A stretch of 64,000 nucleotides of DNA from Phycisphaerales bacterium (GTDB lineage Bacteria > Planctomycetota > Phycisphaerae > Phycisphaerales > UBA1924), in assembly GCA_027019265.1 (NCBI GenBank), contig JALUWX010000029.1:1-64000 (forward strand), read 5' to 3'. Positions 1 to 13,086 of this stretch are shown piece after piece; the stretch's first letter is position 1; each line of letters starts with the position of its first letter. The notes beneath the pieces are model-generated. The model made no database searches. It was not told the DNA's origin and saw only the letters and a list, made by a program, of their open reading frames with translations. A program made the translations under genes and the position numbers.

Positions 1-94
<94 letters not shown>

Positions 95-107
95 GCGTGG
101 GGCGGCG

Positions 108-2651
108 ATGGTGGCGATGCGGGCGTTGTTGTATGAGCTTTCGGAACGGGATCCGGGGGCTTTTGCGCTCACGGGGATGACGGTCGAGGGTTTGGACTCG
201 GGGGAGTCGGAGGGGGTGATGGCGCTCCGGGCCGCGCTGGCGCTGACGATGTCGGGATCGACGAGGGAGGAGATGGAGCGCGCGATGGGGGTGTGTGCGC
301 GGATCGCGCGTGGGGGATCGGTGGGGGATCGTTCGATCGAGCGAGCGTTGGAATCGGTGCGTGTATCGATCGAGACGCGCGAGCGCGAGGATGTGGGGAT
401 GCATTTGCGCGCGGGATGGCTCGAGGACTTGATGGGTGGGTCGGGGCTCGCGCGGGTGTCGGAGCCGACGGCTGAGGTGTTCGAGGGGCTGACCCTGGGC
501 GCGGTCCGTGGGTACATGGGGCGCGCGTGGCGCGCGGGGGCGATGACGGTGCTCGTGGTGGGGGATGTGGATTCGGGGTGGGTGGTAGATCGCGCGGGGT
601 CGGTGTTCGGGGATGTGGTGCGCGATGATCGGGGCGCGTTCGAGGGGGTGGATCTCGGGGCCGCTCGGGTCGGGGGTCGGATTGCGACGGCGCATGATGC
701 GCGGCTCGATGGGACGGAGCTCGGTCTTGTGTGGTTCGGGGAGAACACGATCGAGGTGCTGGACGAGGGATCGCTCGATGAGCTGGTGACGATCGCGTTG
801 GCCGGTGAGGCGATGCGCTCGAGGGTGAATCGTGTGGTTCGTGCGGAGCTCGGGGAGGTGACGATTGCGGGTGTGCAGGTGGGGGACATCACTTCGGAGG
901 CGCGGTTTGCGCAGATGGTGGTGCAGATGGAGGGGGATGGGTGGGAGGAGGCGCTTCGGGCGCTGATCGTGGAGCGGACCCGGCTCGTGCGCGACGGGGT
1001 GGTGGGGGAGGAGCTCGATCGGGCTCGCGCTTCGCTGACCCAGCGGTTGGTGTCGGAGGGAGAAGCGTGGTCGAGGTCGTCGGCGCGGGATCGGGCGCGT
1101 TCGCTTGTGTGGATGATGAGCGCGGGGCGTGAGCTTGTGGATCTGGGGTCGGTGCTCTCGAGTGCGCCGGGGTGTGTGGATCGGGTGTCGGAGTCGGATG
1201 TTCATGCGATGATCGTGTCGCTTATCGGGGAGGGTGAGCCCGGGGTGGTGGTGGCGCTGGATTCGAGGGAGGGGGTGTCGAGGGACGAGGTCGCGCGTGT
1301 TGTGCGCGCGGCGATGCGGGAAGACCCGGAACCCATCGGTGAGCGCTGGGTGGAAGCGATGCACGGGTCGATCGTGGAGAACATCCGCGCTGGGGGTCGG
1401 GTGGAGGAGGTTCGTTCGCACGGGGCTTCGGGGGTGGTCGAGGCGCGGCTGAGCAACGGGGTGTGGGTCCGTCATCGGTCGATGGGGTCCTCGGGGGATC
1501 GCGCGACACTCGCGGTGCATGTGTGGTTCGGGGAAGCGCCGGACGAGTCGATGGATGGGGTGGAGGATGTGCTGGTTCGTGCGATCGAGGGGACGACGAT
1601 CCGGTCCCGGCTCGATCCGGAGATGCGCACGCTGATGCGTGAGTACGGGCTTTCGGTGCGCGTGGAGCATTCGGTCCGGTCCGTGATGATCGAGATCGAG
1701 GGTCCGGGTTCGTCGCTCGAGCGGTGCGCGGAGCTCGCGTTTGCGTTGCTGATGGATCTTCGGGTGGACCCGTCGCTTGTCGGGGCGGTGCGCGGTGAGG
1801 CGGAGCGCGGGGAGATTGCGGTTGGGATGTCGAAGAGCGCGCTGGAGCTCGGGATCGCGCGGGCGATGGGTGAGGATCCGGGGGTCCGGTCGGCGCGGGT
1901 GCTCGGGGAGGGGGTGGATGCGCGTTCGGCGTTGTCGTTCTGGAGGGATGCGGTCCGGGACGGGCTCGTGGAGATCGGGCTCGTGACGGGCGAGGATGCG
2001 GAGTCGTCGCTCGGGGTGGTGGCGCCGATTCTGGGCGCGGTGGTGGACAACGAGCACGGGGTGTGTGCGGTGCACGAGTTGGAGCACGGCGCGGCTCGGC
2101 GCGGTGTGGTCCGGGTGGAGGATCCCTCGGGGTGGTCGGGGGTGGCGATGGGGTTCTCGGCCGGCGATGCGCGGGACTTGGCGCAGGTGCGGACGCTCGT
2201 GGTGGGATCGATGGTGCTCGGGGAACGGGTGCGGAAGGCGGCGGAGTCGGAGGGGCTCGGTGATCGGGTGTACGGGGTGCTGGTGTTGTCGGATCTGACA
2301 CCGGGGCACGCGTATGTGGCGGTCCGTGTGGGGTGTGAGCCCGGGGATGCGGAACGGGCGTTGGGGTTGATCGGGGAGGTGACGGCGGAGCTGGTGGATA
2401 CGGGGGTGACGGAGGGAGAGATGGGGTGGGCTCGGGATCGGATCACGAGATCGCTCGCGCGGACTTCGGAGGAGCCCTCGTACTGGGCGCGTCGGTTGGC
2501 GATGCTCGGGATGTTCGGTCAGGACGTGGAGACGCTGTGGTCGATCGGTGAGGACTATGCGCGGATCGGGGGCGCGGAGGTGGACGAGGTGATGCGCTCG
2601 TGGTACGCGCGGGGGGCGCATTTCTCGATCGAGTTTGTGGGTGGGGAATGA
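108..2651 (+). CDS. M16 (insulinase/pitrilysin-like) zinc peptidase, 5' truncated
   Basis: This is an 847-residue C-terminal part of a two-repeat M16 peptidase. Around residues 130-156 it has the family pattern in which an aromatic/Arg-rich segment is followed by a beta strand ending V-V-G-D-V-D. A second M16-like half follows from about residue 440. No H-x-x-E-H zinc motif is visible. In a full protein it would lie in the missing N-terminal domain, so the ATG at 108 is probably internal and the gene is cut by the poly-G edge. Third codon positions are overwhelmingly G. The family degrades peptides, often in the periplasm. A non-catalytic M16B partner subunit is the alternative. The gene converges on the low-complexity gene downstream and shares a terminator with it. 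Confidence 0.75.
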   Translation: MVAMRALLYELSERDPGAFALTGMTVEGLDSGESEGVMALRAALALTMSGSTREEMERAMGVCARIARGGSVGDRSIERALESVRVSIETREREDVGMHLRAGWLEDLMGGSGLARVSEPTAEVFEGLTLGAVRGYMGRAWRAGAMTVLVVGDVDSGWVVDRAGSVFGDVVRDDRGAFEGVDLGAARVGGRIATAHDARLDGTELGLVWFGENTIEVLDEGSLDELVTIALAGEAMRSRVNRVVRAELGEVTIAGVQVGDITSEARFAQMVVQMEGDGWEEALRALIVERTRLVRDGVVGEELDRARASLTQRLVSEGEAWSRSSARDRARSLVWMMSAGRELVDLGSVLSSAPGCVDRVSESDVHAMIVSLIGEGEPGVVVALDSREGVSRDEVARVVRAAMREDPEPIGERWVEAMHGSIVENIRAGGRVEEVRSHGASGVVEARLSNGVWVRHRSMGSSGDRATLAVHVWFGEAPDESMDGVEDVLVRAIEGTTIRSRLDPEMRTLMREYGLSVRVEHSVRSVMIEIEGPGSSLERCAELAFALLMDLRVDPSLVGAVRGEAERGEIAVGMSKSALELGIARAMGEDPGVRSARVLGEGVDARSALSFWRDAVRDGLVEIGLVTGEDAESSLGVVAPILGAVVDNEHGVCAVHELEHGAARRGVVRVEDPSGWSGVAMGFSAGDARDLAQVRTLVVGSMVLGERVRKAAESEGLGDRVYGVLVLSDLTPGHAYVAVRVGCEPGDAERALGLIGEVTAELVDTGVTEGEMGWARDRITRSLARTSEEPSYWARRLAMLGMFGQDVETLWSIGEDYARIGGAEVDEVMRSWYARGAHFSIEFVGGE

Positions 2652-2666
2652 GTGTGGTGGGCGCAT

Positions 2667-2698
2667 GAGAAACCCGCGCCTTTGGGGGCGCGGGTCTC
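2667..2698. terminator. Bidirectional intrinsic terminator
   Basis: A GC-rich stem pairs CCCGCGCC with GGCGCGGG, extended by GAG/CTC at the base. It lies between the convergent ends of the M16 peptidase and the low-complexity protein gene. The T-tracts are weak on both sides. Confidence 0.6.
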
Positions 2699-2721
2699 GA
2701 TGATCGCGGAGTGGTCGCGGA

Positions 2722-3171
2722 TCAGGCGGCTTGGGGGACGGGGGTGTTGTTGGTGGCGGGGGCGCCGGCAAAGGGGTTGAAGCCGAAGGGGGTGTTCGGG
2801 AAGTTGGACTTGGCGGATTCGGGGCTTTCGTTGTTCCAGTAGTTGAAGGCGTAGGGGAAGTTGAAGCCGAACCCGAAGGGGGTGTTGTAGCCGGCGAAGG
2901 GGAAGGCGTTGTTCCAGCTGGAGGACTGGGCGAAGAAGGGGTTGTTCCAGTTCCAGTTGAAGGGGGTGTTCCAGTTCCAGTTCTGGAAGCCCTGGAAGCC
3001 GGGGAATGAGTTGAAGCCGGGGAAGCTGTTGTACCCGGAGAAGTTGAAGGGGGTGTTCCAGTTGTAGCCCTGGTTCCAGGATTGGTTCCAGCCCTGGTTC
3101 CAGCCCTGGTTCCAGTTGGAGAAGCCTTGGAAGCCGGGGAAGGAGTTGAACGGGGTGAAGAAGTAGCTCAT
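2722..3171 (-). CDS. Asn/Trp/Phe/Gly/Pro low-complexity protein
   Basis: This is a 149-residue protein without a signal peptide, made almost entirely of N, W, F, G, P, Q, S and Y. Short units repeat: W-N-Q-G occurs several times near residues 19-36, N-T-P-F recurs four times, and F-P-G-F recurs three times. An AAAGG Shine-Dalgarno eight bases before the ATG and a terminator after the stop support a real expressed gene. No catalytic domain is recognisable. The composition resembles aromatic prion-like sequences that self-assemble or phase-separate, but that role is inference. It is a single gene with no obvious operon partner. Confidence 0.75.
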   Translation of the reverse strand: MSYFFTPFNSFPGFQGFSNWNQGWNQGWNQSWNQGYNWNTPFNFSGYNSFPGFNSFPGFQGFQNWNWNTPFNWNWNNPFFAQSSSWNNAFPFAGYNTPFGFGFNFPYAFNYWNNESPESAKSNFPNTPFGFNPFAGAPATNNTPVPQAA

Positions 3172-3361
3172 GGTGTGGACCTTTCGATGCGTGGTTCGGG
3201 TGTTCGGGACACGGCGTTGTGTCCTGATGCGCGCATGAGATCGACACCCGATCGGGGTGGGTTTTGTGTGAGTGTGGGGTTGGGTGTGTGTCTTGGCGCG
3301 TTGTGAATGAAGAGGGCGCGGAATGTGCGCGTGGGGTGCTTATCGGAGTTGGGAGAGGGGG

Positions 3362-3736
3362 TTAGTCCCGGGTGTAGGTCGCGACGCAGGCCGGGGCTTC
3401 GGTGACGGAGACGGAGTGGACGCGCGCGGGGGCGATGGCGCTGTCGAGTCGGTCGGCGAGTTCGTCGGCGATGAATCGCGCGATGTATTCGGCGCTGGGG
3501 TTGGTCCGGTCGAAGGGGAGGATCTCGTTGAGGTTGTTGTTGTTGAAGGGTTCGCAGATATCGACGAGGGTTTCGTGCGCGGTGTGGAAGTCGCAGACGA
3601 GCCCGTCGTGGTCGAGTTCTTTGGTTTCGATCCGGGCTTTGACTTTGAAGTTGTGGCCGTGGATGGGTTCTTTGGACCCGGCGATGGTGAGGGCGTGGGC
3701 GGCGCAGAACTCGTGCGCGACTTGGATGGCGTACAT
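3362..3736 (-). CDS. 6-pyruvoyltetrahydropterin synthase family protein, PTPS-III-like
   Basis: At 124 residues this is a typical length for the QueD/PTPS fold. Zinc ligands are visible at His14 and in the H-G-H at residues 26-28. The Cys that lies four residues before H-G-H in QueD is Lys here, and Glu23 produces an E-x-x-H-G-H motif. That motif defines PTPS-III enzymes, which replace dihydroneopterin aldolase (FolB) in folate synthesis in some bacteria. A folate role is therefore more likely than queuosine, and a canonical QueD is encoded at 31869-32336. The start lies 2 bases after the stop of the small membrane protein gene, so the two are probably co-transcribed. Confidence 0.8.
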   Translation of the reverse strand: MYAIQVAHEFCAAHALTIAGSKEPIHGHNFKVKARIETKELDHDGLVCDFHTAHETLVDICEPFNNNNLNEILPFDRTNPSAEYIARFIADELADRLDSAIAPARVHSVSVTEAPACVATYTRD

Positions 3737-3738
3737 GG

Positions 3739-4020
3739 TCAGGACTCGCTTTGGGGTTGGTTGGGGGTGTTGGGTTTGTTCCAGAGGAAGAGGGAGCGGA
3801 AGGCCATGGCGGCGATGATGGCGTTGGCGATGACTCCGGCGGGGGAGTCGGCGAGGATGTTGAAGGCGATCCAGCAGATGGAGGCGAGGGCGCCGAGGGC
3901 GAAGCCGTCCTTGTGGTGGTGTCCGAGGCGGTACATGGAGAGGAACATGAAGGTGGCGGCGGCGATGTCGAGGCCGAAGTATTTGTTGAGGGAGAGTGCG
4001 TTGATGATGGTGTCGATCAT
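3739..4020 (-). CDS. Small integral membrane protein
   Basis: This is a 93-residue protein with about three hydrophobic segments (residues 18-30, 42-56, 60-80) and a charged R-L-G-H-H-H-K loop between the first two. The open frame extends further upstream, but the ATG at 4020 fits the hydrophobic core and leaves a short divergent intergenic region with the phosphohexomutase gene. The next gene, the PTPS-like enzyme, starts 2 bases after its stop, implying an operon. A distant similarity to PnuC/YgjV-like transport proteins is possible but not demonstrated, so the function is unknown. Confidence 0.6.
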   Translation of the reverse strand: MIDTIINALSLNKYFGLDIAAATFMFLSMYRLGHHHKDGFALGALASICWIAFNILADSPAGVIANAIIAAMAFRSLFLWNKPNTPNQPQSES

Positions 4021-4092
4021 GGGAGCGCAGGATAGGGGCGATCTTTGGGTGGGAGGTGCCGTATGGTTCGGGACGATCAATGGAGGTGCGAG

Positions 4093-5607
4093 ATGGGCGA
4101 TGGTTCGGGTTTGATTCTGGGTGTGAGTGGTTTGCGGGGGATTGTGGGGGAGGATCTGACGCCGGAGGTTGCGGTTCGGTATGCGGGGGCTTTTGGATCG
4201 TGGTTGCGCGAGAAATCTGGGGATGAGATGCCGCGGGTTTTGGTTTGTCGGGATGGTCGTGCTGGGGGTGGTGTCTTTTTGGATGCCGTATGCGCGGGGC
4301 TGCGATCGGTCGGGTGTGATGCTTGGGATTGTGATGTGCAGATGACGCCTTCGGCGGGTGTGATTGCGGCAGCGAAAGGGTGTGTCGCTGCGATGATCGT
4401 TACCGCGAGTCACAATCCTGGTGAATGGAACGGGTTGAAGTGTTTGCTTGCGGATGGTGAGATGTTCAATGCTCCATTTGCTGCTGAAGCGGTTGAGATT
4501 GTCAATGCGTTCCAGAGCGATGAGATCCGCTATGTTGAGCCTCATGATGTTGGTGAGCGGATTTTCGAGGACAGCGGATCGTGCGCGATCCATGTCGGCT
4601 TAGTTTCTGACAAGATTGCAGAAGTTGGGCTTGGGATCAACGATCGCGCAACGGCTTTCACTGGTAAGCGGGTCGTGCTCGATTCGGTGAATGCTTCTGG
4701 GAGTGTTGCAGTCGAGAAGTTGATGCAGATGCTGTTGATCGATTCGGTCCAACTTCATGGTGATGATTCAGGGATCTTTCCTCACACCCCTGAGCCGACG
4801 AAGGAGAATCTGTCGGGTGCGGGTGGGTTGTGTGATGTGGTGCCCGGGATCAAGGCGGATGTGGGGTTTGCGCAGGATCCGGATGCGGATCGGTTGGCGA
4901 TTGTGGATGAGACGGGCGCGTACATCGGGGAGGAGTACACGTTGGTGCTGTGCGCGATGGCGCTTATGGAAGCGCGGATGGGGAAAGGCGCGGGTGCGGG
5001 GAAGCCGGTGTTTGTGGTGAACTTGTCTACGTCGAGGATGATCGACGATGTGGCGAAGCACTACGGGGGGGAGGTTGTGAGGACGGCCGTCGGTGAGGCG
5101 AATGTGGTGGAGGCGATGAAGCGGCTCAAGGGTGAGGGTCGGGATGTGGTCTTGGGGGGTGAGGGGAACGGCGGGGTGATCTGGCCGGAGGTGACGTATG
5201 TGCGCGATTCGTTGTCGGGGATGGGGTTGGTGCTGTCGCTGATGGCGCGGACTGGGAAGTCGGTGTCGGAGCTGGTGGGGATGGTGAACGGGATGGGTCC
5301 GACGGATGAGGTGCGGGCGCAGGGGTACACGATCCTGAAGTCGAAGTCGGGGCTGGCGAAGAAGGAGGATGCGCGGCCGGTGGTGGAACACCTGGCGGAG
5401 GTGTACGGGGGGGATCCGTCGGCTCGGGTGGATCTCCAGGACGGGATCCGGGTGGATTGGGACGAGAAGGGGGTGTGGGCGCATGTGCGGGCGAGCAATA
5501 CGGAGCCCATTATGCGGGTGATCGTGGAGGCGCCGAGCTCGGGGGAGGCGGAAGCGACGGCGGCGGCGATCGGGGCGGAGATTGGTCGGCTGGGTGAGGT
5601 AGAATGA
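4093..5607 (+). CDS. Phosphohexomutase (phosphoglucosamine/phosphomannomutase family)
   Basis: This 504-residue enzyme interconverts hexose 6- and 1-phosphates through a phosphoserine. The catalytic T-A-S-H-N-P is at residues 104-109 (Ser106). The Mg-binding D-P-D-A-D-R follows near residue 260, the sugar-specificity loop G-E-G-N-G-G near 358, and the phosphate-binding R-A-S-N-T-E-P near the C-terminus. The ATG at 4093 is chosen because GGAGG lies six bases before it. The G-E-G-N-G-G loop fits GlmM-like enzymes, which supply glucosamine-1-phosphate for cell envelope sugars, but substrate cannot be fixed from sequence. The first half up to about 4800 is clearly less GC-biased than the second. 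Confidence 0.88.
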   Translation: MGDGSGLILGVSGLRGIVGEDLTPEVAVRYAGAFGSWLREKSGDEMPRVLVCRDGRAGGGVFLDAVCAGLRSVGCDAWDCDVQMTPSAGVIAAAKGCVAAMIVTASHNPGEWNGLKCLLADGEMFNAPFAAEAVEIVNAFQSDEIRYVEPHDVGERIFEDSGSCAIHVGLVSDKIAEVGLGINDRATAFTGKRVVLDSVNASGSVAVEKLMQMLLIDSVQLHGDDSGIFPHTPEPTKENLSGAGGLCDVVPGIKADVGFAQDPDADRLAIVDETGAYIGEEYTLVLCAMALMEARMGKGAGAGKPVFVVNLSTSRMIDDVAKHYGGEVVRTAVGEANVVEAMKRLKGEGRDVVLGGEGNGGVIWPEVTYVRDSLSGMGLVLSLMARTGKSVSELVGMVNGMGPTDEVRAQGYTILKSKSGLAKKEDARPVVEHLAEVYGGDPSARVDLQDGIRVDWDEKGVWAHVRASNTEPIMRVIVEAPSSGEAEATAAAIGAEIGRLGEVE

Positions 5608-5610
5608 GCT

Positions 5611-5910
5611 ATGAGCACGACTGAGATCGATCACGGCGGTGTGGAGAACGGGATGCATCACGAGGCGCGCGAGGGGGGGTACGACATCGGGTCGCGCGTT
5701 CGGGTGGTCCAACAGATCGTTCGTCTGCGCGGGACGGAGACGACGAGTGTCGAGGGGGTGATCCTCCGGATGGGTCAGCAGAAGACGGGGTCGTGGTTCG
5801 CGCACGCGAAGGACAAGAAGCTGTGGCTCGATCGTCTGGAGCTGAAGAAGGATGACGGGGAGCTGGTCACGGTGAATCTGGATCAGTACTCTCGGGTCGA
5901 GGTGCTCTGA
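5611..5910 (+). CDS. Conserved-looking small protein of unknown function
   Basis: This is a 99-residue soluble protein starting 3 bases after the phosphohexomutase stop, so it is probably translationally coupled to it. The N-terminal 25 residues are acidic and His-rich. The rest reads as a small beta-rich domain with alternating hydrophobics (V-V-Q-Q-I-V, then L-V-T-V-N-L). No signal peptide or catalytic motif is visible. It is not recognisably phage-related and appears to belong to the operon upstream rather than to the capsid module downstream. Confidence 0.6.
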   Translation: MSTTEIDHGGVENGMHHEAREGGYDIGSRVRVVQQIVRLRGTETTSVEGVILRMGQQKTGSWFAHAKDKKLWLDRLELKKDDGELVTVNLDQYSRVEVL

Positions 5911-5935
5911 TCGGGTGTGATCGGTCTGGGGAGTA

Positions 5936-6075
5936 ACCCGGTTTGTGCGCACAGATTGGTGCGCGGGACGGGTGCGTTTCTGAGAAGTTGAAAAGAATCT
6001 TTAGTGCGTGCGGCTCATGGGGTTGCGCGTTTTTTCTGCGCGCGCAGTGACGGGGATTGTGCGCACAAACCGGGT
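5936..6075. repeat. 18-bp inverted repeat pair framing the capsid-module leader
   Basis: The arm ACCCGGTTTGTGCGCACA (5936-5953) recurs exactly inverted at 6058-6075, separated by 104 bases. Each arm contains the palindrome TGTGCGCACA. Between them lies a T-rich loop flanked by TGCGCG/CGCGCA (6024-6046). The arrangement fits paired operator sites for a dimeric regulator, or a large stem in the leader, in front of the portal gene. A related palindrome, GTGTGCGCAC, occurs at 11262-11271 where the module ends. Confidence 0.65.
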
Positions 6076-6130
6076 CGGGTGCGCCATGGGGTGAACGTGC
6101 GATGTTGCACGGAGGGAAGTGGAGGCGGGA

Positions 6131-7630
6131 ATGTCTGATCAGCTCGGGGCGGTGTTGTCGAAGGATTCGGATCGGGTGGATACGGCGGTTGCGGCGCTTG
6201 TGGGTGCGCACCGTGCTCGGGGTCTGCCGGTGATGGAGCGGCTTTGGTCGTACTTTCGCAACCCGCTCGAGCTGGTCGGGCGATCGGGGTCGGCGGTCGG
6301 GGGGGACTCTCAGGTCGGGTGGTATCGGATGGCGCAGGAGATCGGTCTCCCGAGGCGCGTGAGGGGGGCCCGGGTCGATGGGGTGGGGGCGGAGCGCCAT
6401 CGTCGTGAGGTGGTGATCGAGAACGACATCGGGTGGCGCATCGCGGCGATGGTGGACTTCATGTTCGGGGAGCCCGTGCGGATCGGGTCGTTGGCTTCGA
6501 GCAAATGGATGCGCGACATGATCGAGGGGGTGCTCGAACGGGTGTGGGAGCGGAGCGGGGGGATTGCGCTGATGCAGGACCTGGCGACGCTCGGGCACGT
6601 GTTCGGTCATGTGGATCTGGTGGTCCGGGTGGACGAGGCGAAGCTTGCTGGCGCTGGGGTGGAGGACGCGCACGAAGCGGTGTCGATTGAACTCGTCGAA
6701 GCGCGGCGGGGGATCCCGGTGCTGGATGAGTCGGACTATCGGGAGATCGGCGCGTATGTGGTGCATGTGGATCGGGGATCAGGGGAGGATGAGAGAGGTT
6801 CGGTGTCGAGGTCGGCGTTGGCGCGTCTCCGGGGGCGCGGGAAGAAGGACGGTGGGGGATCGATCAAGGGATCGACGGAGCTGATCACACGCGATGGGTC
6901 GGTGGTGTACGAGGACGGGGTGCGCGTGGGGTCGGGGGATCGGGTGTATCTGCGCGGGGTTGTGCCGGTGGTGCATATCCAGAATGTGAGCCAGCCGTTT
7001 GTGTATTCGGGGCTCGGGGAAGTGGAGGCGTTGATCCCGCTTCAGGACGAACTGAACACGCGGCTCAGTGATCGCGCGAATCGGGTGACGCTTCAGAGTT
7101 TCAAGATGTATCTGGCGCGGGGGATCGAGGGGTTCGATGGAAGCGCGGTGGGTCCCGGGACGGTGTGGAGCACGGACAATCCGGACGCGACGATCGTGGG
7201 GTTCGGGGGGGATGCTTCGAGCCCGAGCGAGGATCGTCATATCGAGGAGATCCGGGAGGCGATGGACAAGGTGTCGGGGGTGCCTCCCTTGGCTGGGGGT
7301 GTGGTGAAGGCGAAGCTGGGGAACCTGTCGAGCGCGAACGCGCTCCGGGTGACCCTGATGGGGCTGATCGCGCGGACGAAGCGGAAACGGGTGACGTACG
7401 GGCGCGGCTTGGAACAGGTGAGTGCGTTGGTGCTGAGGGCGCTCGATGAAGCTGGGGTTCTGAGGACGAAGGAATCGGAGCGCGGGGTGCGCGTTCGGTT
7501 CGGGGCGTTGGGTCCGATCGGGGACTTCGAGGAGCTCGAACGGGCGCAGCAGCAGCTTGATATTGGTGCGGATGAGGAAGCGGTGCTCGATGCGCTGGGG
7601 CTCGATGACGAGGACCCGGGTGTGGTTTGA
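6131..7630 (+). CDS. Phage-type portal protein
   Basis: At 499 residues this matches the SPP1 gp6-like portal family. The protein has the expected mixed alpha/beta body. Its late segment, in which a proline-rich loop precedes N-L-S-S-A-N-A-L and the basic helix T-K-R-K-R-V-T-Y-G, corresponds to the portal stem and crown helices. Portals form the dodecameric DNA entry pore of capsids. The ATG at 6131 has GGAGG five bases upstream. A GTG at 6119 in the same frame is an alternative. It is the first gene of a co-oriented cluster, and no terminase precedes it. Confidence 0.85.
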   Translation: MSDQLGAVLSKDSDRVDTAVAALVGAHRARGLPVMERLWSYFRNPLELVGRSGSAVGGDSQVGWYRMAQEIGLPRRVRGARVDGVGAERHRREVVIENDIGWRIAAMVDFMFGEPVRIGSLASSKWMRDMIEGVLERVWERSGGIALMQDLATLGHVFGHVDLVVRVDEAKLAGAGVEDAHEAVSIELVEARRGIPVLDESDYREIGAYVVHVDRGSGEDERGSVSRSALARLRGRGKKDGGGSIKGSTELITRDGSVVYEDGVRVGSGDRVYLRGVVPVVHIQNVSQPFVYSGLGEVEALIPLQDELNTRLSDRANRVTLQSFKMYLARGIEGFDGSAVGPGTVWSTDNPDATIVGFGGDASSPSEDRHIEEIREAMDKVSGVPPLAGGVVKAKLGNLSSANALRVTLMGLIARTKRKRVTYGRGLEQVSALVLRALDEAGVLRTKESERGVRVRFGALGPIGDFEELERAQQQLDIGADEEAVLDALGLDDEDPGVV

Positions 7631-7665
7631 GTGGGTGAATGTACACGGAGTGATTGGAGGATCTG

Positions 7666-8193
7666 ATGATTAAAGATTCGGGTGGTGGTGGATTGCTCGG
7701 GGGGAACGGTGGGGGTGAAGCGCCGGAGGCGCAGGACCCTCCGGAGCTGAGTGAGGAGCTGGTCTGGAAGGCGCGGGCGCAGGAGGCGGAGTCTCAGCTT
7801 GGCGCGTGTCACGATCGGATCGATGAGCTCGAGACGGAGCTGGCGCGGGCGCAGGAGACGGTCGCGATGACGGAGCGGAGGGCGATGATCGAGCGCGAGC
7901 TGACGTCGGCGCAGGCGATTGATCTGGAGACGGCGCATCTGTTGACGGAGGCGGCGATCTCGGAGATGGATGAGCCGGATGTGGCGATCGCGGTGCGGGA
8001 GCTTCGGGCGCGGAAGCCGTTCCTGTTTGTGTGCGATGATCCGGCGCATCGGGGTCGGGGATCGGGGGCGATGAGTGCGTTCGAGCGCGGGACCCGATCG
8101 GAGGATGACCTGGGGGACCTGGCGCAGAGTGCGCGTTCGTCCGGGGATCGGAACGAGCTGCTCCGGTATCTGCGGGCTCGTCGTCGGGGTTGA
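7666..8193 (+). CDS. Probable capsid scaffold-like protein
   Basis: This is a 175-residue acidic protein with a Gly-rich start (residues 5-17) followed by a long predicted coiled coil of charged heptads (about residues 27-90) and an Arg-rich C-terminus. Position between portal and major capsid, length and coiled-coil character match phage scaffolding proteins, which guide shell assembly. There is no sequence motif that proves this. GGAGG lies five bases before the ATG at 7666. No capsid maturation protease is seen next to it. Confidence 0.55.
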   Translation: MIKDSGGGGLLGGNGGGEAPEAQDPPELSEELVWKARAQEAESQLGACHDRIDELETELARAQETVAMTERRAMIERELTSAQAIDLETAHLLTEAAISEMDEPDVAIAVRELRARKPFLFVCDDPAHRGRGSGAMSAFERGTRSEDDLGDLAQSARSSGDRNELLRYLRARRRG

Positions 8194-8257
8194 GGGATCG
8201 GGTGTTGAAGGGATTGGACTGAGGACTTGATGCGCGAGGAGCGCGGGGAGGTTTTGC

Positions 8258-9433
8258 ATGGCGTTTACTGGGAAAGCGACGTATGGGGGCGGGGCGGATC
8301 TGCCGGAGCTGGTTGAGGATGTGAGCGACATCATCGGGATCGTGAGTCCGTTCGAGACGCCGTTGCTGGATCATCTGGGTGATCCGAAGCGAGCGGCGAT
8401 GTCCACGGTGCACGAGTGGATCGAGGATTCGCTCTTGGCGAACTCGGGGCGGATCAACCAGTCGAGCTTTACGCCGGACGCGCAGAGCGCGACGGGGATC
8501 ATCGTGGACGACACGGGGGTGTTCCGGGTGGGGGATCTGGTTCGGCCGCAGGGGTCGAGCGAGGTGATGCTGATCGATGAGGTGAACACGGGTGGTTCGT
8601 TCATCGGGGTGGTGCGCGGGTACGGGGGGACGACGGCGGCGACGCTTGTTGACAACATGGTGCTCGAGATTCTGGGGAACGCGGCGCTGGAGGGTGATGA
8701 TGCGCCGGCGGCACGGTTTACGACGCGCGTCCGGAAGAGCAACTACACCCAGATTTTCACGAGCGGGATCGAGGTGTCGGGTTCGCTCCAGGCGAGCCGC
8801 GCGTATGGGATCAGCGATGAGGTGGACTACCAGAAGCAGGAGCGGATGCGCGAGCTCTTGCGTGATCTGGAGAACTGTGTGATCAACGGGGTTGCGCCTT
8901 CGAGCACGCAGCAGGGGTCGGGGTCGGTGCGCCGATCGATGAACGGGATTCTTCATTCGCTCGAGACGAACGTGTTCGAGCCCGGGGTGGGCGCGATCCC
9001 GGACGGGGAAGGTGCGGGTGATGACGAGTTGAGCGAAGCGGTGCTGAATGCGGCGCTCAAGGCGATCTGGGACAACTCGAGTGGGGGTGTGGACACGATC
9101 GTGGTGGGTGGTGCGCAGAAGCGGAAGATCAACTCGTTCGCGACGGGGTCTCGCGCGTATCTCCCGGATGACCAGACGTACTCGGACATGATCAGTGTGT
9201 ACGAGAGTGATTTCGGGGTGTGCCGGGTGATCATGTCGCGCTGGATGCCGACGGATTCGGTGCTCTTGCTCGATTCGTCAAGGGTCGGGGTGCTCCCACT
9301 CCAGGGGCGCAGTTTCCATTACAAGCCCTTGGCGGCGACGGGGGATGCGATCAGCGGTCAGGTGATCGGGGAGTACACGCTCGAGTTCAAGAACGAGAAC
9401 GCGCACGGGGTGATCTCCGGGCTCGGTGTGTGA
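8258..9433 (+). CDS. Major capsid protein, SU10-like (DUF5309)
   Basis: This 391-residue protein has the features of the SU10 major capsid family. The N-terminal region has S-P-F-E-T-P-L-L-D, a pattern shared by these capsid proteins. The middle has an aromatic-poor domain around I-F-T-S-G-I-E-V-S-G, and a late segment F-G-V-C-R-V-I-M-S-R-W-M is typical of the HK97-fold A-domain in this family. It should self-assemble into an icosahedral shell. A good Shine-Dalgarno (GGGGAGG) precedes the ATG. A strong hairpin follows the stop, consistent with higher expression of this gene than those after it. Confidence 0.88.
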   Translation: MAFTGKATYGGGADLPELVEDVSDIIGIVSPFETPLLDHLGDPKRAAMSTVHEWIEDSLLANSGRINQSSFTPDAQSATGIIVDDTGVFRVGDLVRPQGSSEVMLIDEVNTGGSFIGVVRGYGGTTAATLVDNMVLEILGNAALEGDDAPAARFTTRVRKSNYTQIFTSGIEVSGSLQASRAYGISDEVDYQKQERMRELLRDLENCVINGVAPSSTQQGSGSVRRSMNGILHSLETNVFEPGVGAIPDGEGAGDDELSEAVLNAALKAIWDNSSGGVDTIVVGGAQKRKINSFATGSRAYLPDDQTYSDMISVYESDFGVCRVIMSRWMPTDSVLLLDSSRVGVLPLQGRSFHYKPLAATGDAISGQVIGEYTLEFKNENAHGVISGLGV

Positions 9434-9462
9434 TCTGATTGGTGCGTCCTGAGAGGGGCGCG

Positions 9463-9546
9463 ATGAACGTGGGGGCTCCGGTTGGGGGACCGGGGCGCTC
9501 GGGGCGCGCTTCAAGGCGCGTCCCGGGTTTGAACGGTGTGTTCTGA
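9463..9546 (+). CDS. Possible 27-residue micro-ORF
   Basis: A 27-codon frame starts at an ATG preceded by GAGAGGGG and ends one base before the ATG at 9548. The product is Gly/Arg/Pro-rich with no recognisable motif. It overlaps the hairpin at 9500-9525 and may be a chance frame or a leader-type translation element between capsid and neck genes. Confidence 0.25.
   Translation: MNVGAPVGGPGRSGRASRRVPGLNGVF
9500..9525 (+). terminator. Strong hairpin after capsid gene, attenuator-like
   Basis: A 10-bp stem (one G-T wobble) with loop TTCAAG is followed by GGGTTT. A second small hairpin, CCGGT/ACCGG, lies at 9478-9493. The position right after the major capsid gene suggests partial termination or RNA stabilisation, a common way of making capsid more abundant than downstream proteins. 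Confidence 0.55.
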
Positions 9547-9562
9547 TATGAAGGGGGTGAGG

Positions 9563-10192
9563 ATGTTCGCGAAGGATCGGGATCTGGTGGCGATGGAGCC
9601 CGGGCTGCTCCGGGATGTGGCGTGGTCGGGTCAGCGGCGATTGAGCACGACGGGGTCGGTGAGCGGGACGACGCTGACGATCGGGTCGGGTTCGTTTGTG
9701 GACTCGGGGATTGCGCAAGGGGACATCGTGAGTGTGGACTCGACGGTGGTCGAGGTCGTGGAGGTGCTGAGCGCGACGACGGCGACGGTGTCGCTGGTCC
9801 TGGGGGACGGGGAGTCGGACCCGATCGGTCCCGGGTCGATGACGGGGGTGGGGGTGGAGGTGTACACGTTCCGGCCTCAGCTGGGGATCGTGCATCGTCA
9901 GGTGCTGGCGATGCTCGGGATCGATCCGGACGATCCGCAGGGTTTGGATGCGAGCGCGGTGCTGAACCCGGAGTCGTTGGTGCGATTGGAAGCGCTGGGG
10001 GCGCTGCACCTGATCTATGCGAGCGCGGGGGCGCCGGGTCGTGGGGGCGAGGGGTTCGCGGATCGCGCGGCGCGGTACAGGGAGCGGTTTGCGAACGAGC
10101 GGGGTCGGGTGAGTGTGCTGATTGATCTGGATGGGGACGGGGTCGCGGAGACTCGTCGTCATCCGAACACGTTTGTGCTGACGAGGGGGTGA
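9563..10192 (+). CDS. Phage neck/head-tail connector-like protein
   Basis: This is a 209-residue protein in two parts. Residues 20-105 are Thr/Ser/Val-rich beta strands. The C-terminal half is helical and ends with Y-R-E-R-F-A-N-E-R and then L-I-D-L-D-G-D-G-V-A, a combination seen in small phage adaptor proteins that dock on the portal. ATG 9563, preceded by AAGGGGGTGAGG, is preferred. ATG 9548 and GTG 9536 in the same frame are alternatives. The L-D-G-D-G-V-A end may bind metal. Assignment rests on position and pattern, so confidence is moderate. Confidence 0.5.
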   Translation: MFAKDRDLVAMEPGLLRDVAWSGQRRLSTTGSVSGTTLTIGSGSFVDSGIAQGDIVSVDSTVVEVVEVLSATTATVSLVLGDGESDPIGPGSMTGVGVEVYTFRPQLGIVHRQVLAMLGIDPDDPQGLDASAVLNPESLVRLEALGALHLIYASAGAPGRGGEGFADRAARYRERFANERGRVSVLIDLDGDGVAETRRHPNTFVLTRG

Positions 10193-10195
10193 GCG

Positions 10196-10597
10196 ATGGT
10201 GGTGCTTCGGCCGAGCTCGGTGGAGTTCGATGGTCAGAGGTTCGGGGATGTGGAACGGGTGACGATCGATTCGTTCTCGCTCGATATGGCGGAGTCCTGG
10301 GGGGAGGAGGGTCCCGAGCTGATGTTCGCGGATTCGGTCCGGAGGAAGACGACGGCGACGGTTGTGCAGTCCGTGTCGAGGACGGAGCTGGAGGTTCCGG
10401 AGCTCGGGTCGATGGGGGAGCTTGTGGTCGAGGTGACCCCAGGGAGTGATGCGCTCGCGCGCCGGATCGAGGTGGATGTGGTGGTGCAGAGCGTGGGGTA
10501 TGCGGTGCTCGGGGATCGGACGAGGCGCGAGATCCGGTTCGTCGGGGTGAGTTTGGACGGCGAGAGTTCGCCGATCCGTGTGATCGGGGGTGGATGA
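10196..10597 (+). CDS. Phage-like structural protein, unknown role
   Basis: This is a 133-residue soluble, beta-rich protein with alternating Val/Glu strands and no signal peptide or cysteines. It starts 3 bases after the neck-like gene with GAGGGGGTGAG before the ATG, and its last codons overlap the next start. Length, strand pattern and place in the cluster are compatible with a tail-tube or connector protein, but no diagnostic motif was recognised. If it is a tube protein, the cluster would encode a minimal tail without a tape measure. Confidence 0.45.
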   Translation: MVVLRPSSVEFDGQRFGDVERVTIDSFSLDMAESWGEEGPELMFADSVRRKTTATVVQSVSRTELEVPELGSMGELVVEVTPGSDALARRIEVDVVVQSVGYAVLGDRTRREIRFVGVSLDGESSPIRVIGGG

Positions 10598-10986
10598 TGT
10601 CGTCGAGCTTTCGTGGGGATGATCTGTTCGGGAGCGGGCCTCATTCGTTTGTGGTGTGGAGACAGGGGCGCGTGGTGCTCCCGGATTCGATCGCGAATAA
10701 CGATGTGTTCGATACGGGGTCGATCATCATCGGGGAGCGCGAGCTCCGGATCGAGGTCCGTGGTCGGCTCGTGTCGTCGAGCGAATCCGGGTTGTGGTCG
10801 GAGCGCGACGCGATCCTGGACCATGCGGGGTTCTCGGATCCGTCGGGGACCCTGGAGGACCAGCACGGGCACGAGTGGGACGATGTGTATCTGATCGAGT
10901 TCGAGCCCATCGGGTCGGTCGAGCGGGGTCGGGTGTACTCGATGTCGTACCGCGCGCTGTTCGGGGTGGTGGAGACGGGGCCTTGA
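10594..10986 (+). CDS. Phage-like structural protein, unknown role
   Basis: This is a 130-residue protein beginning in an ATGA overlap with the previous stop, so it is translationally coupled. It has aromatic segments (H-S-F-V-V-W near residue 17, E-W-D-D-V-Y near 95) separated by a charged middle with an I-I-I-G-E-R-E-L-R strand. No membrane segment is present. The genes before and after it are phage-like, so a minor virion or tail-completion role is likely. The family was not recognised. Confidence 0.45.
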   Translation: MMSSSFRGDDLFGSGPHSFVVWRQGRVVLPDSIANNDVFDTGSIIIGERELRIEVRGRLVSSSESGLWSERDAILDHAGFSDPSGTLEDQHGHEWDDVYLIEFEPIGSVERGRVYSMSYRALFGVVETGP

Positions 10987-10997
10987 TGGAGGACACG

Positions 10998-11255
10998 ATG
11001 ATGGAGACATTGGCGCAGTTCGGGGTCGCCGGGGTGATGGGGGCGATGTGGCTCATCGAGCGTCGCGCGAGCGCGAAACGGGAGGAGCAGCTGACCCAGG
11101 CGCACGAGAAGCTGATCGGTCAGCTCGACGATCGGGGGGCGCTGATCGAGATCGTGAGAGACAACACCCGCGCGCTTTCCCTGCTCGAAGCGGGGCAACG
11201 GGGTTTGGTGGAGGCGCTGAAGTCGCGCGTCGTCGGGTCGGGTGAGGGGGTCTAG
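10998..11255 (+). CDS. Holin-like small membrane protein (BhlA/UviB type)
   Basis: This is an 85-residue protein with one N-terminal hydrophobic helix (residues 5-20, F-G-V-A-G-V-M-G-A-M-W-L-I) followed by a charged coiled coil that ends in a basic tail. This layout matches small BhlA/UviB-type holins of phages and bacteriocin loci, which permeabilise the membrane for release. GGAGG lies five bases before the ATG at 10998. An ATG at 10986 overlapping the previous stop is an alternative. It is the last phage-like gene of the cluster. No endolysin is adjacent. Confidence 0.55.
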   Translation: MMETLAQFGVAGVMGAMWLIERRASAKREEQLTQAHEKLIGQLDDRGALIEIVRDNTRALSLLEAGQRGLVEALKSRVVGSGEGV

Positions 11256-11263
11256 CATCGTGT

Positions 11264-11779
11264 GTGCGCACGCTTCCTGTGATCCCGGTCCTGATCTCGT
11301 GTCTCGCGATGTCGTCGTGTCAGCGCGGGCTCGTGATCCGGGAGGAGTACGTGCGCGGGGACGAGGGGATGACGATCCCGGGGCCGTTCTCGACGGCTCG
11401 GATGCGGGTCCATCCGTTGACCCACACGGAGCGTGTGGAGGGCGAGACCCGACTGGTGCTCCACATGGAACTCAACGACGGGTGGGGGGACACGATCAAG
11501 GCGCTGGGGACGGTGCGCGCGACGATGGAGCCCGTGGGGGGGCAGGGCGGACGCGGGGTGACCTGGGATGTGGATATCCGGGACTCGAAGACGAACGTGT
11601 CGTACTTCGATTCCGTGACGCGCACCTATCGGTTCGTGTTCAGCGGGGTCCCGGGGTGGTTCGAGACGGAGGGACGCGGGATGGTGCGCCTCCAGTTCCG
11701 GACGGCTCGCGCGGACGGATCGGTCAACGCGATCTCCGACTCGTTCGAGGTCGAGGTCGGGATGTCCGAGCAGAACTGA
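11264..11779 (+). CDS. Predicted secreted lipoprotein
   Basis: This 171-residue protein starts at a GTG that lies inside the palindrome GTGTGCGCAC (11262-11271), 8 bases after the holin-like gene. Residues 4-18 form a hydrophobic signal ending S-S-C19, a weak lipobox. The mature part is beta-rich with W-D-V-D-I-R and F-R-T-A strands and no known catalytic motif. It may be the last gene of the capsid operon, for example an envelope partner of the holin, or an unrelated neighbour. The next gene converges from the other strand. Confidence 0.55.
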   Translation: MRTLPVIPVLISCLAMSSCQRGLVIREEYVRGDEGMTIPGPFSTARMRVHPLTHTERVEGETRLVLHMELNDGWGDTIKALGTVRATMEPVGGQGGRGVTWDVDIRDSKTNVSYFDSVTRTYRFVFSGVPGWFETEGRGMVRLQFRTARADGSVNAISDSFEVEVGMSEQN

Positions 11780-11787
11780 TCGGGGGA

Positions 11788-13086
11788 TCAGTCTTTGAGT
11801 TTCCCGTCCTCGACGATCCCGAGCTGCTCGTACTTCTCCATGTAGGTATCGCGGAGTTCGGTCTGTTTGTTGGACAGGTCGATGGAGCGCCCGTGGATGT
11901 ACGCGCCGCTGAGGGTGGTGCGGACATCGAGGATGTCGCCGTCGGCGATGATGAGGGTGGCGTGCTTGCCCTGCTCGATGGACCCGATCTGTGCATCGAC
12001 CCCGAGGATCTGCGCGGCGCTCAGGGTGATTCCCTTGAGCGCTGCTTCGTGGTCGAGCCCGTGCGCGACGCAGATGGCGGCGGCGTCGGGGAGGTTGCGT
12101 TCGTGCGCGAAACGTCCCGACATGGTGAGCGCCCACTGGACCCCGGCGCTCTCGAGCTTGTGCGCGAGAGAGTAGGGCTCGTCGTAGGGGGAGTCGGCGC
12201 GTTTGGGGAAGTTGAATGCGCCCCCGATGATGACGGGGGTGTCGGTCTCGATGAGGAGGTCCGTGCACAGGTGCGCGTCGCGTCCCCCGACGATGACGGG
12301 GTCAAGATCGCGCGACTGCGCCCAGCGGATCGCGCCGGTGATCTGGTTGAAGGAGTTTGCGAGGACGAAGATCGGGTTCCGGTTCTCGGTGCTCGGGAGC
12401 ACGGTGGTGAGCGCTTCGAGCTTCTGATCGATCCCGTCGTGGTGCTGCGCGTAGGAGACGGCTTGGTCGAAGATCCGGTCGAGCTCGTCGGTGTTGTCGG
12501 GGTCGAAGTTGATGATGACCCCGGCGTCACGCTTAAGCGCGAGGTCTTCGGTGGTCCATCCATCAGCGACGAGGATGGACGCGCGACCCGGGATCCGGCC
12601 TCCGGTCGGGAAGACCCCGAAGGAGAGGACCCCGTTCGTGCGCGCTGTGGGGATGACGGTCGAGTCCGGGTTCACAGCGACGTACGCGCGGACCTCGGGG
12701 GTCATGGACCCGACTTCGTTCTTGTCGAGGGTCGCGCGGACGGCGGAGACTTCCTCGAGCCCGAGCACGGTGACGGAGTCGATCAGACCCGGGTAGATGT
12801 GATGACCCGAGAGATCGATGATCTGGGTATCGGGTCCGAGCGAGATGCGCGGCATGATCTCCTCGGCGCGTCCGACGAGCCCGATGATCCCTTCGTTGAA
12901 GGAGACGACCCCGTTCTCGATCGTGTCTCCCGAGATCGTGTGCACGGTCGCGCCGACGAGGAACACGGGGTGCTCCTGCGCGGGGGCGGCCGGCGCGAGG
13001 TCCTGCGCGAACGCGCTGCTCGTGAGGAGCGACGCGGCGATGGTGGTTGCGAAGCGTGTCATGGTGTGGGTTCCGTGGTGGTTCAT
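11788..13086 (-). CDS. Secreted amidohydrolase-family protein lacking the HxH metal motif
   Basis: This is a 432-residue protein with a signal peptide if started at Met9 (13062: T-R-F-A-T-T-I-A-A, ending A-F-A-Q). It has the amidohydrolase layout: an N-terminal beta domain, P-G-L-I-D, then a barrel, and a C-terminal G-S-I-E-Q-G-K-H-A-T strand typical of the family. Where active enzymes have D-x-H-x-H it reads D-S-V-T-V, so two metal ligands are missing and hydrolase activity is doubtful. It starts 3 bases downstream of the larger amidohydrolase gene and is probably co-transcribed with it. Confidence 0.75.
   Translation of the reverse strand: MNHHGTHTMTRFATTIAASLLTSSAFAQDLAPAAPAQEHPVFLVGATVHTISGDTIENGVVSFNEGIIGLVGRAEEIMPRISLGPDTQIIDLSGHHIYPGLIDSVTVLGLEEVSAVRATLDKNEVGSMTPEVRAYVAVNPDSTVIPTARTNGVLSFGVFPTGGRIPGRASILVADGWTTEDLALKRDAGVIINFDPDNTDELDRIFDQAVSYAQHHDGIDQKLEALTTVLPSTENRNPIFVLANSFNQITGAIRWAQSRDLDPVIVGGRDAHLCTDLLIETDTPVIIGGAFNFPKRADSPYDEPYSLAHKLESAGVQWALTMSGRFAHERNLPDAAAICVAHGLDHEAALKGITLSAAQILGVDAQIGSIEQGKHATLIIADGDILDVRTTLSGAYIHGRSIDLSNKQTELRDTYMEKYEQLGIVEDGKLKD

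Follow-up and report, generated by a model that had tools for sequence, protein, structure and literature searches.

The best-studied gene transfer agents (GTAs) are alphaproteobacterial, and those of the RcGTA family have a major capsid protein of the HK97 type (Phage_capsid) and a prohead protease in the cluster. According to PMC11409702, the phage-derived head-tail genes of RcGTA have been retained by the host at several separate loci, and the agent is thought to have lost its lysogeny and replication genes. Encapsulins are likewise described (PMC8346489) as an HK97-fold shell kept by the host. Within the planctomycetes, a prophage terminase of Zavarzinella has been placed near that of RcGTA (PMC7947584), and no report of a GTA in Phycisphaerae was found in the accessible part of the open-licence PMC literature. 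Here we analyse a cluster of phage-type genes at positions 6131-11779 of a 64,000-nucleotide stretch (hereafter, the window) of a Phycisphaerales genome, contig JALUWX010000029.1 of assembly GCA_027019265.1. This cluster is likely to be the head and tail half of an old, mostly vertically inherited, phage-derived particle that would package DNA, most plausibly a GTA.

The locus resembles RcGTA in its host-kept, dispersed phage-derived genes and in the Foldseek matches of its tube-fold proteins to RcGTA structures (6tba/6toa, E 0.004-0.035). It differs in its SU10-type capsid (PF17236), in a separate terminase locus with an S24 repressor, in the phylum of its host, in a very reduced tail, and in that no protease or tape measure was found in the cluster. 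Its capsid matches SU10_MCP alone and none of the eight cluster proteins matches a protease; the best reading is thus a GTA lineage outside the RcGTA family. With the phages that carry SU10-type capsids it shares the capsid family; those, however, are phage records, and the terminase described here is 22-29% identical to the 20 phage records listed. Like encapsulins, it has a host-kept HK97-fold shell but, contrary to them, portal, terminase and tail-fold proteins are co-conserved with it.

A conserved set of genes

Genes for capsid, portal, tube-fold proteins and a terminase form a set, frequently spread over two loci, that is conserved, mostly intact and largely vertically inherited in these bacteria. 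In the genome under study (3.04 Mb in 122 contigs, 91.5% complete), the window belongs to contig 29, and eight co-oriented genes fill the cluster, with gaps of 35, 64, 114, 3, -4, -1 and 8 bases for the starts chosen (Table 1). A first, sequence-only reading had described seven tightly spaced genes, and the order and spacing hold, whereas the count becomes eight with the lipoprotein-like gene, which adjoins the holin-like gene in other families as well. The portal and SU10-type capsid that it had named are borne out by profile matches, as are its flanks, a phosphohexomutase gene upstream and amidohydrolase genes downstream. It had also noted the lack of protease, tape measure and integrase, for which there is indeed no match among the eight proteins, and a codon usage like that of the host: the distance in relative synonymous codon usage is 0.10 to the two same-strand genes just upstream, versus 0.17 to the remaining genes called in the window.

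The six proteins other than portal and capsid had no confident match in Pfam or PHROGs. Profile searches of P4, P5 and P6 against solved structures returned nothing of weight; the connector-like role of P4 comes from its position, since its best structure match (0.0053) spans only about 20 residues of a calcium-binding loop. P7 had no Pfam match at 0.01, and its weak PHROGs match is to phrog_2429, which we take to be a holin-like family.

The terminase locus

The sequence-only reading had found no terminase, which is right for the cluster but not for the genome, where it had suggested that one be sought. A search of the same genome with the phage terminase family gave one good match, on contig 106 (3.2e-16), and a second, weaker one (7.6e-5). 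The former is the predicted TerL, P0011 (Table 1), and a lone head module without terminase is thereby ruled out. Its neighbour P0009, an ABC-ATPase, had been considered as TerL and proved the wrong candidate. Both P0009, which has an acetyltransferase-like half (named by eye), and P0010, with helix-turn-helix (HTH) matches at two places, lie upstream of TerL on the same strand, and divergent from the three genes is a repressor of the S24/LexA type with HTH_3 and Peptidase_S24 domains, matching phrog_4 at 5e-27. Most of the terminase loci retrieved from relatives have parts of this set as well. The Walker A and B motifs and three acidic nuclease residues of TerL are invariant in 18/18 sequences, and the cleavage site, serine and lysine of the repressor are kept in 15/16, the exception (L083) being a short gene call; the roles of these residues are those that we assume for the two families.

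Co-occurrence and linkage

Capsid and TerL tend to be present or absent together. Among 101 genomes (this one and relatives, tallied by hand), 75 have a capsid match and 76 a TerL match: 68 hold both, 7 only the capsid, 8 only TerL and 18 neither (Fisher p 1.0e-8). A strict tally without two weak, phage-like capsid matches (G008, G011) gives 66, 7, 10 and 18, respectively (p 7.0e-8). These p values overstate the independent evidence, because the genomes are related. The one-sided genomes are not all assembly gaps, since 7 of the 15 are at least 90% complete.

At a capsid cut-off of E 1e-60 or better, the capsid was found in 107/248 genomes of the class, taken here as Phycisphaerae, and in 88/194 of the good ones; TerL was present in 25 of the 26 capsid-positive genomes chosen for the test, missing only in G109. 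The sequence-only reading had regarded patchy, strain-specific occurrence as contrary to a retained module, and the distribution is indeed patchy at the scale of the class, but the absences of capsid and TerL tend to coincide. In a sample of the phylum, the capsid occurs in 39/294 genomes; 20 of these lie outside the class, with capsid identities of 49-53%. There, the TerL alignment matched in 14/16 capsid-positive genomes versus 1/6 capsid-negative controls, the matches spanning, as a rule, the nuclease half only.

The two genes lie at very different distances from each other. In genomes consisting of one contig, they are separated by 0.98 Mb (G117), 0.69 Mb (G158), 168 kb (G152), 128 kb (G130), about 40 kb (G091) and about 9 kb (G163); in G068, around 8.5 kb and other genes lie between them, and in the present genome they are on separate contigs. 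In a genome of another order (L254 of G108), an ABC gene, a 194-amino-acid gene, a GNAT-like gene, a 126-amino-acid gene and TerL are followed, 1.5 kb further, by the portal, then scaffold, capsid, P4, P6, c30, c26, a LamG protein (PF13385 1.2e-17), and proteins of 698 amino acids and 575 amino acids (hub-like), the last two without a family match. TerL directly precedes the portal in gene order here, so what was a single gene block has since been split. The sequence-only reading had held that a terminase adjacent in related strains, or a complete prophage, would speak against it; the adjacency exists in this one other order, as a module and not as a complete prophage, and no integrase-like gene was noticed in the 20 kb fetched. 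A phosphohexomutase gene lies inside the fetched capsid locus in 13/51 genomes, including members of families f1, f5 and f6, suggesting that within the order the locus goes back to a single old site on the chromosome.

The clusters found outside the class differ downstream of the capsid. Most of L364-L373 have portal-like, scaffold-like and capsid genes followed by genes of about 220, 435, 220-380 and 640-1490 amino acids, and could perhaps represent a second GTA-like design. The divergent neighbouring gene is ArgS-like (by eye) at L364 and L365 and of similar length in seven others. For another family, f47, an anammox identity was considered and dropped owing to its GC content of 64-68%, judged against the value that we assume for anammox bacteria.

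Inheritance, selection and intactness

Pairwise tree distances correlate with those of RpoB for TerL (0.887, 18 genomes) and, over 19 genomes, for portal (0.775), capsid (0.696) and P4 (0.557), with p between 0.0001 and 0.0008 for all four genes. The sequence-only reading had also proposed measuring the ratio of non-synonymous to synonymous substitution rates (dN/dS, omega) across relatives. In the closest pair, G005/G006, this ratio is 0.125 for the capsid, 0.148 for the portal, 0.094 for P6, 0.101 for P7, 0.145 for P8, 0.237 for TerL, within 0.09-0.15 for the scaffold-like protein, 0.19 for P4, 0.32 for P5 and 0.40 for the HTH protein; in deeper pairs omega is higher, with synonymous sites near saturation. 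Judged from these ratios, the cluster and TerL genes are under purifying selection.

Intactness was assessed at 51 loci picked for a capsid match, a gene being counted as full when at least 80% of the profile is covered. The portal is full at 47, P4 at 49, the capsid at 48 and the scaffold at 42 (a scaffold homologue is present at 47), P5 at 20, P6 at 29, P7 at 30 and P8 at 20 (present at 21, one partial). Five of the 48 passing capsids are split copies of which the longer part alone passes (L045-L048, L258), leaving a whole capsid at 43/51 loci.

Predicted tail-type folds and composition of the proposed tail

The sequence-only reading had seen no baseplate, which is probably wrong. The models of P5 and P6, the two proteins that it had called structural-looking, were built on alignments of 17 and 22 sequences, respectively. 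The P5 model matches neck and tube proteins of phage 812, R4C, diffocin, RcGTA and lambda gpV, and that of P6 matches baseplate proteins of Pa193, E217, Mu and Milano and the Dit protein of SPP1. The best Foldseek E-values are 2.0e-4 and 4.2e-4, with template modelling scores of 0.5-0.6 and root-mean-square deviations of 4-8 A, so that the two calls concern a fold and not a family.

The core in the class consists of portal, scaffold-like protein, capsid and P4, with P5 and P6 in the family of the window and in some other families. Several of these other families have extra genes (c30, c26, long genes and one of about 550 amino acids labelled hub-like by eye) between the Dit-like and holin-like genes, and the loci of family f18, tentatively Sedimentisphaera, have little beyond P4. 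An alignment of the hub-like protein (A5) matched in 6/24 genomes, 5 of which had supplied its rows. Reading of the loci revealed no tape-measure-like gene, though no profile search was aimed at one. The best reading is that the family of the window has a very reduced tail.

Proposed particle and alternative explanations

These bacteria would thus probably build their own DNA-packaging virus-like particle. A retained particle of the GTA type is supported by the conserved gene order, the RpoB-like distances, the purifying selection and the co-conserved terminase with its catalytic residues. Head, tail and packaging genes are encoded and kept by the host genome, and the set is probably too spread for one particle in some genomes (0.98 Mb in G117), but only some 9 kb apart in G163 and adjacent in G108. 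With halves that can be separated by hundreds of kilobases, transfer of the complete set in a single particle is improbable, a situation that would be expected for a GTA but not for a virus. Among the nine window and three terminase-locus proteins scanned there was no integrase match, and none had a replication protein as its best match; at the other loci, integrases were judged from gene calls only.

From the gene content, packaging of DNA, induction of the SOS type, holin-like release and transfer of host DNA would be expected to take place as follows. DNA damage would relieve the S24/LexA-type repressor beside the terminase genes, and the portal operon would be turned on via the paired palindromes described below. 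Scaffold, SU10-type capsid and portal would form a procapsid, which the HTH protein, a candidate small subunit, and TerL would fill with chromosomal DNA. Rings of the connector, tube and Dit-like proteins would then close a very short tail, and the holin-like protein, perhaps together with the lipoprotein-like one, would free the particles.

Several observations weigh against this interpretation. P0011 falls below the cut-offs of the Pfam terminase models (best 0.027), and its assignment as predicted TerL rests on the PHROGs matches and motifs. At the cut-off used, 141/248 genomes of the class have no capsid, and in family f2 it is found in G086 alone among the genomes listed. The capsid tree pairs G086 with G056 (support 0.81), unlike that of RpoB, both genomes holding a split capsid; given this departure and the lone capsids, 55-61% identical, that lie among phage-like genes in two phage-like contigs (L284:7023-8183 and L285:5970-7124), the capsid gene may have been exchanged. 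P5 and the HTH protein are fast-evolving (omega 0.32-0.84). The portal of G015 (L038) carries either an in-frame stop or a sequence error, that of G130 is partial; G042 (L052) has a deletion from portal to capsid, G080 (L084) keeps TerL and the holin-like and lipoprotein-like genes with only a remnant of the portal, and in several genomes the capsid is interrupted by an inserted element. Finally, the hub-like gene was matched by alignment A5 in 0/9 tested genomes of the window's family.

Some of these observations, namely the deletions in G042 and G080, the stop in G015 and the missing hub-like gene, together with the lack of an integrase match in the window cluster and the three terminase-locus proteins, are what would be seen if the structural genes were the remains of a prophage on their way out. 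We consider such decay unlikely, even though it is the best placed of the alternatives: portal and P4 are full at nearly all loci (which were picked by capsid match), and low dN/dS, kept catalytic residues, distances that track RpoB and the co-retention of two often unlinked loci argue against decay being the rule.

A functional virus or prophage family common in these bacteria is less probable still. It would account for the phage type of the S24 repressor, for the lone capsids on the two phage-like contigs and for an IMG/VR stretch (L286) that carries the module. The capsid of L286 is 59% identical, and small-terminase-like genes on the other strand and an hsdM-like gene (both by eye) lie upstream. 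L286, however, may itself be chromosomal. Nearly all listed genomes have one close copy, further matches being distant and phage-like, and the RpoB-like distances and the frequent remoteness of TerL from the capsid also argue against a virus; in the present genome, the separate contigs of TerL and capsid and the lack of an integrase match in the scanned proteins do not fit a complete prophage. A tailless particle or nanocompartment that has ceased to package DNA, which the very short gene set, the lack of a noticed tape measure and the reduced distal tail of the window's family might suggest, is the least probable of all, since the portal and the intact-looking terminase, which has its motor and nuclease residues and is retained along with the portal, point to DNA packaging and tube and Dit-like folds are encoded, contrary to an encapsulin-type shell without portal and terminase. 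Of the domesticated capsids proposed by the sequence-only reading, the retained particle and above all its GTA option are supported, and the nanocompartment and tailless options are less likely.

If the GTA interpretation is correct, this would be an independently domesticated GTA, retained across the class and probably further in Planctomycetota; it would show that the taming of phages for DNA packaging has happened repeatedly in bacteria and that its products last for very long times. Genomes that have lost both loci, and others with an interrupted capsid gene, would offer a natural test of GTA persistence. The claim is testable in two cultured species, presumed to be Mucisphaera calidilacus (G091) and Poriferisphaera corsica (G098), which carry the genes.

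Putative control elements

The exact 12-mer TTTGTGCGCACA has three sites in the genome, two of which lie ahead of the portal (Table 1). The third (L227:8269-8282), perfectly palindromic, lies upstream of a gene that encodes a B12-binding protein and is itself followed by one for a sigma factor. Paired copies 109-115 bases apart are present in 10/13 upstream regions with a capsid identity of at least 77%; L102 has one copy, and L105 and L115 have one copy on each strand. Three loci (L100, L109, L156), in which the upstream sequence or the portal is wanting, were left out of this comparison.

A similar word lies upstream of both the portal and the HTH gene in the present genome (G000), G005 and G006, and in shorter form in G037; it was not found in common to the two regions in the other 14 genomes compared. 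An operator common to both loci is kept as a lead only. A scan of the own genome with this word hit inside genes about as often as between them. Between the divergent repressor and HTH gene of G000, an inverted repeat GTTCAC-N6-GTGAAC was seen by eye (L035:13598-13830), which is the same or nearly so in G005, G006 and G015 and is a possible candidate operator of the S24 repressor.

An inserted element and viral relatives

In L045, L046, L047 and L048 (G056, G086, G037 and G022) an insert of about 10.9-11.6 kb splits the capsid at one conserved codon, around residue 57-59; the size range and the two junctions come from these four loci. Split capsids also occur in L049, L258 and G024. The insert of L046 encodes a large serine recombinase (phrog_95 2e-82), AAA_25 primase/helicase-like, HARE-HTH and sigma-like proteins, and a protease-capsid fusion (phrog_4523 4.8e-75). 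The integrase seen at other loci is part of an inserted element. Since the capsid is split at one codon in several genera, the element could be a parasite of the host particle or could serve as its on/off switch. A broader proposal, which we put forward tentatively and consider rather doubtful as a whole, is that the GTA lineage is older than the class, perhaps extending to several classes of Planctomycetota, with SOS-type S24 control and a capsid gene that is a repeated landing site of an 11 kb serine-integrase element with its own protease-capsid fusion. In L049 (G072), the C-terminal part of the portal and the N-terminal part of the capsid are inverted relative to the rest, by either a real inversion or an assembly error.

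None of the 280 phage capsid records reaches 60% identity, the top-ranked named one being Sporosarcina phage Lietuvens (31%). Single-protein scans of IMG/VR gave no relative; the alignment scan found 150 stretches that encode a capsid relative and, among the best 80, three are at 55-61% identity and the next at 42%. L284 holds a different terminase-like gene, and no related portal lies in the fetched stretch of L284 or L285. Several relatives have a second, distant capsid (28-38% identity), presumably belonging to ordinary phages.

Feature coordinates and other observations in the window

Table 1. Positions of the features discussed, in window coordinates except for TerL (G000, the genome of the window; C106, its contig 106).
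Feature	Position	Strand	Basis
Putative operon control region, two copies of TTTGTGCGCACA	5942-5953, 6058-6069	+, -	Ahead of portal; function putative
Portal protein, 499 amino acids	6131..7630	+	PF05133 (SPP1_portal) 1.3e-12; phrog_104 4.1e-12
Scaffold-like protein	7666..8193 (start 7654 or 7666)	+	Position between portal and capsid; no confident Pfam/PHROGs match
SU10-type major capsid protein, 391 amino acids	8258..9433	+	PF17236 (SU10_MCP) 3.4e-89; phrog_1328 2.5e-81; PDB 9ny2 2.1e-23
P4, head-tail connector-like	9548..10192	+	Position
P5, predicted tail-tube-fold protein	10196..10597	+	AlphaFold model (pLDDT 85.9) and Foldseek
P6, predicted Dit / baseplate-tube-initiator-fold protein	10594..10986	+	AlphaFold model (pLDDT 88.9) and Foldseek
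P7, small holin-like protein	10986..11255	+	One hydrophobic N-terminal stretch (by eye); phrog_2429, weak (0.015)
P8, lipoprotein-like	11264..11779	+	Signal and Cys (by eye); 22 members aligned
TerL (P0011), predicted	G000:C106:14119-15606		Matches eight PHROGs terminase families, best 4.8e-15

The + strand of the window has a GC skew of 0.2-0.5 over positions 1-12000, which is about zero by 17 kb, and the genes show a matching codon bias. On the - strand, positions 2722-3171 encode a small protein rich in N/W/G/F repeats (NWNQGWNQGWNQ).

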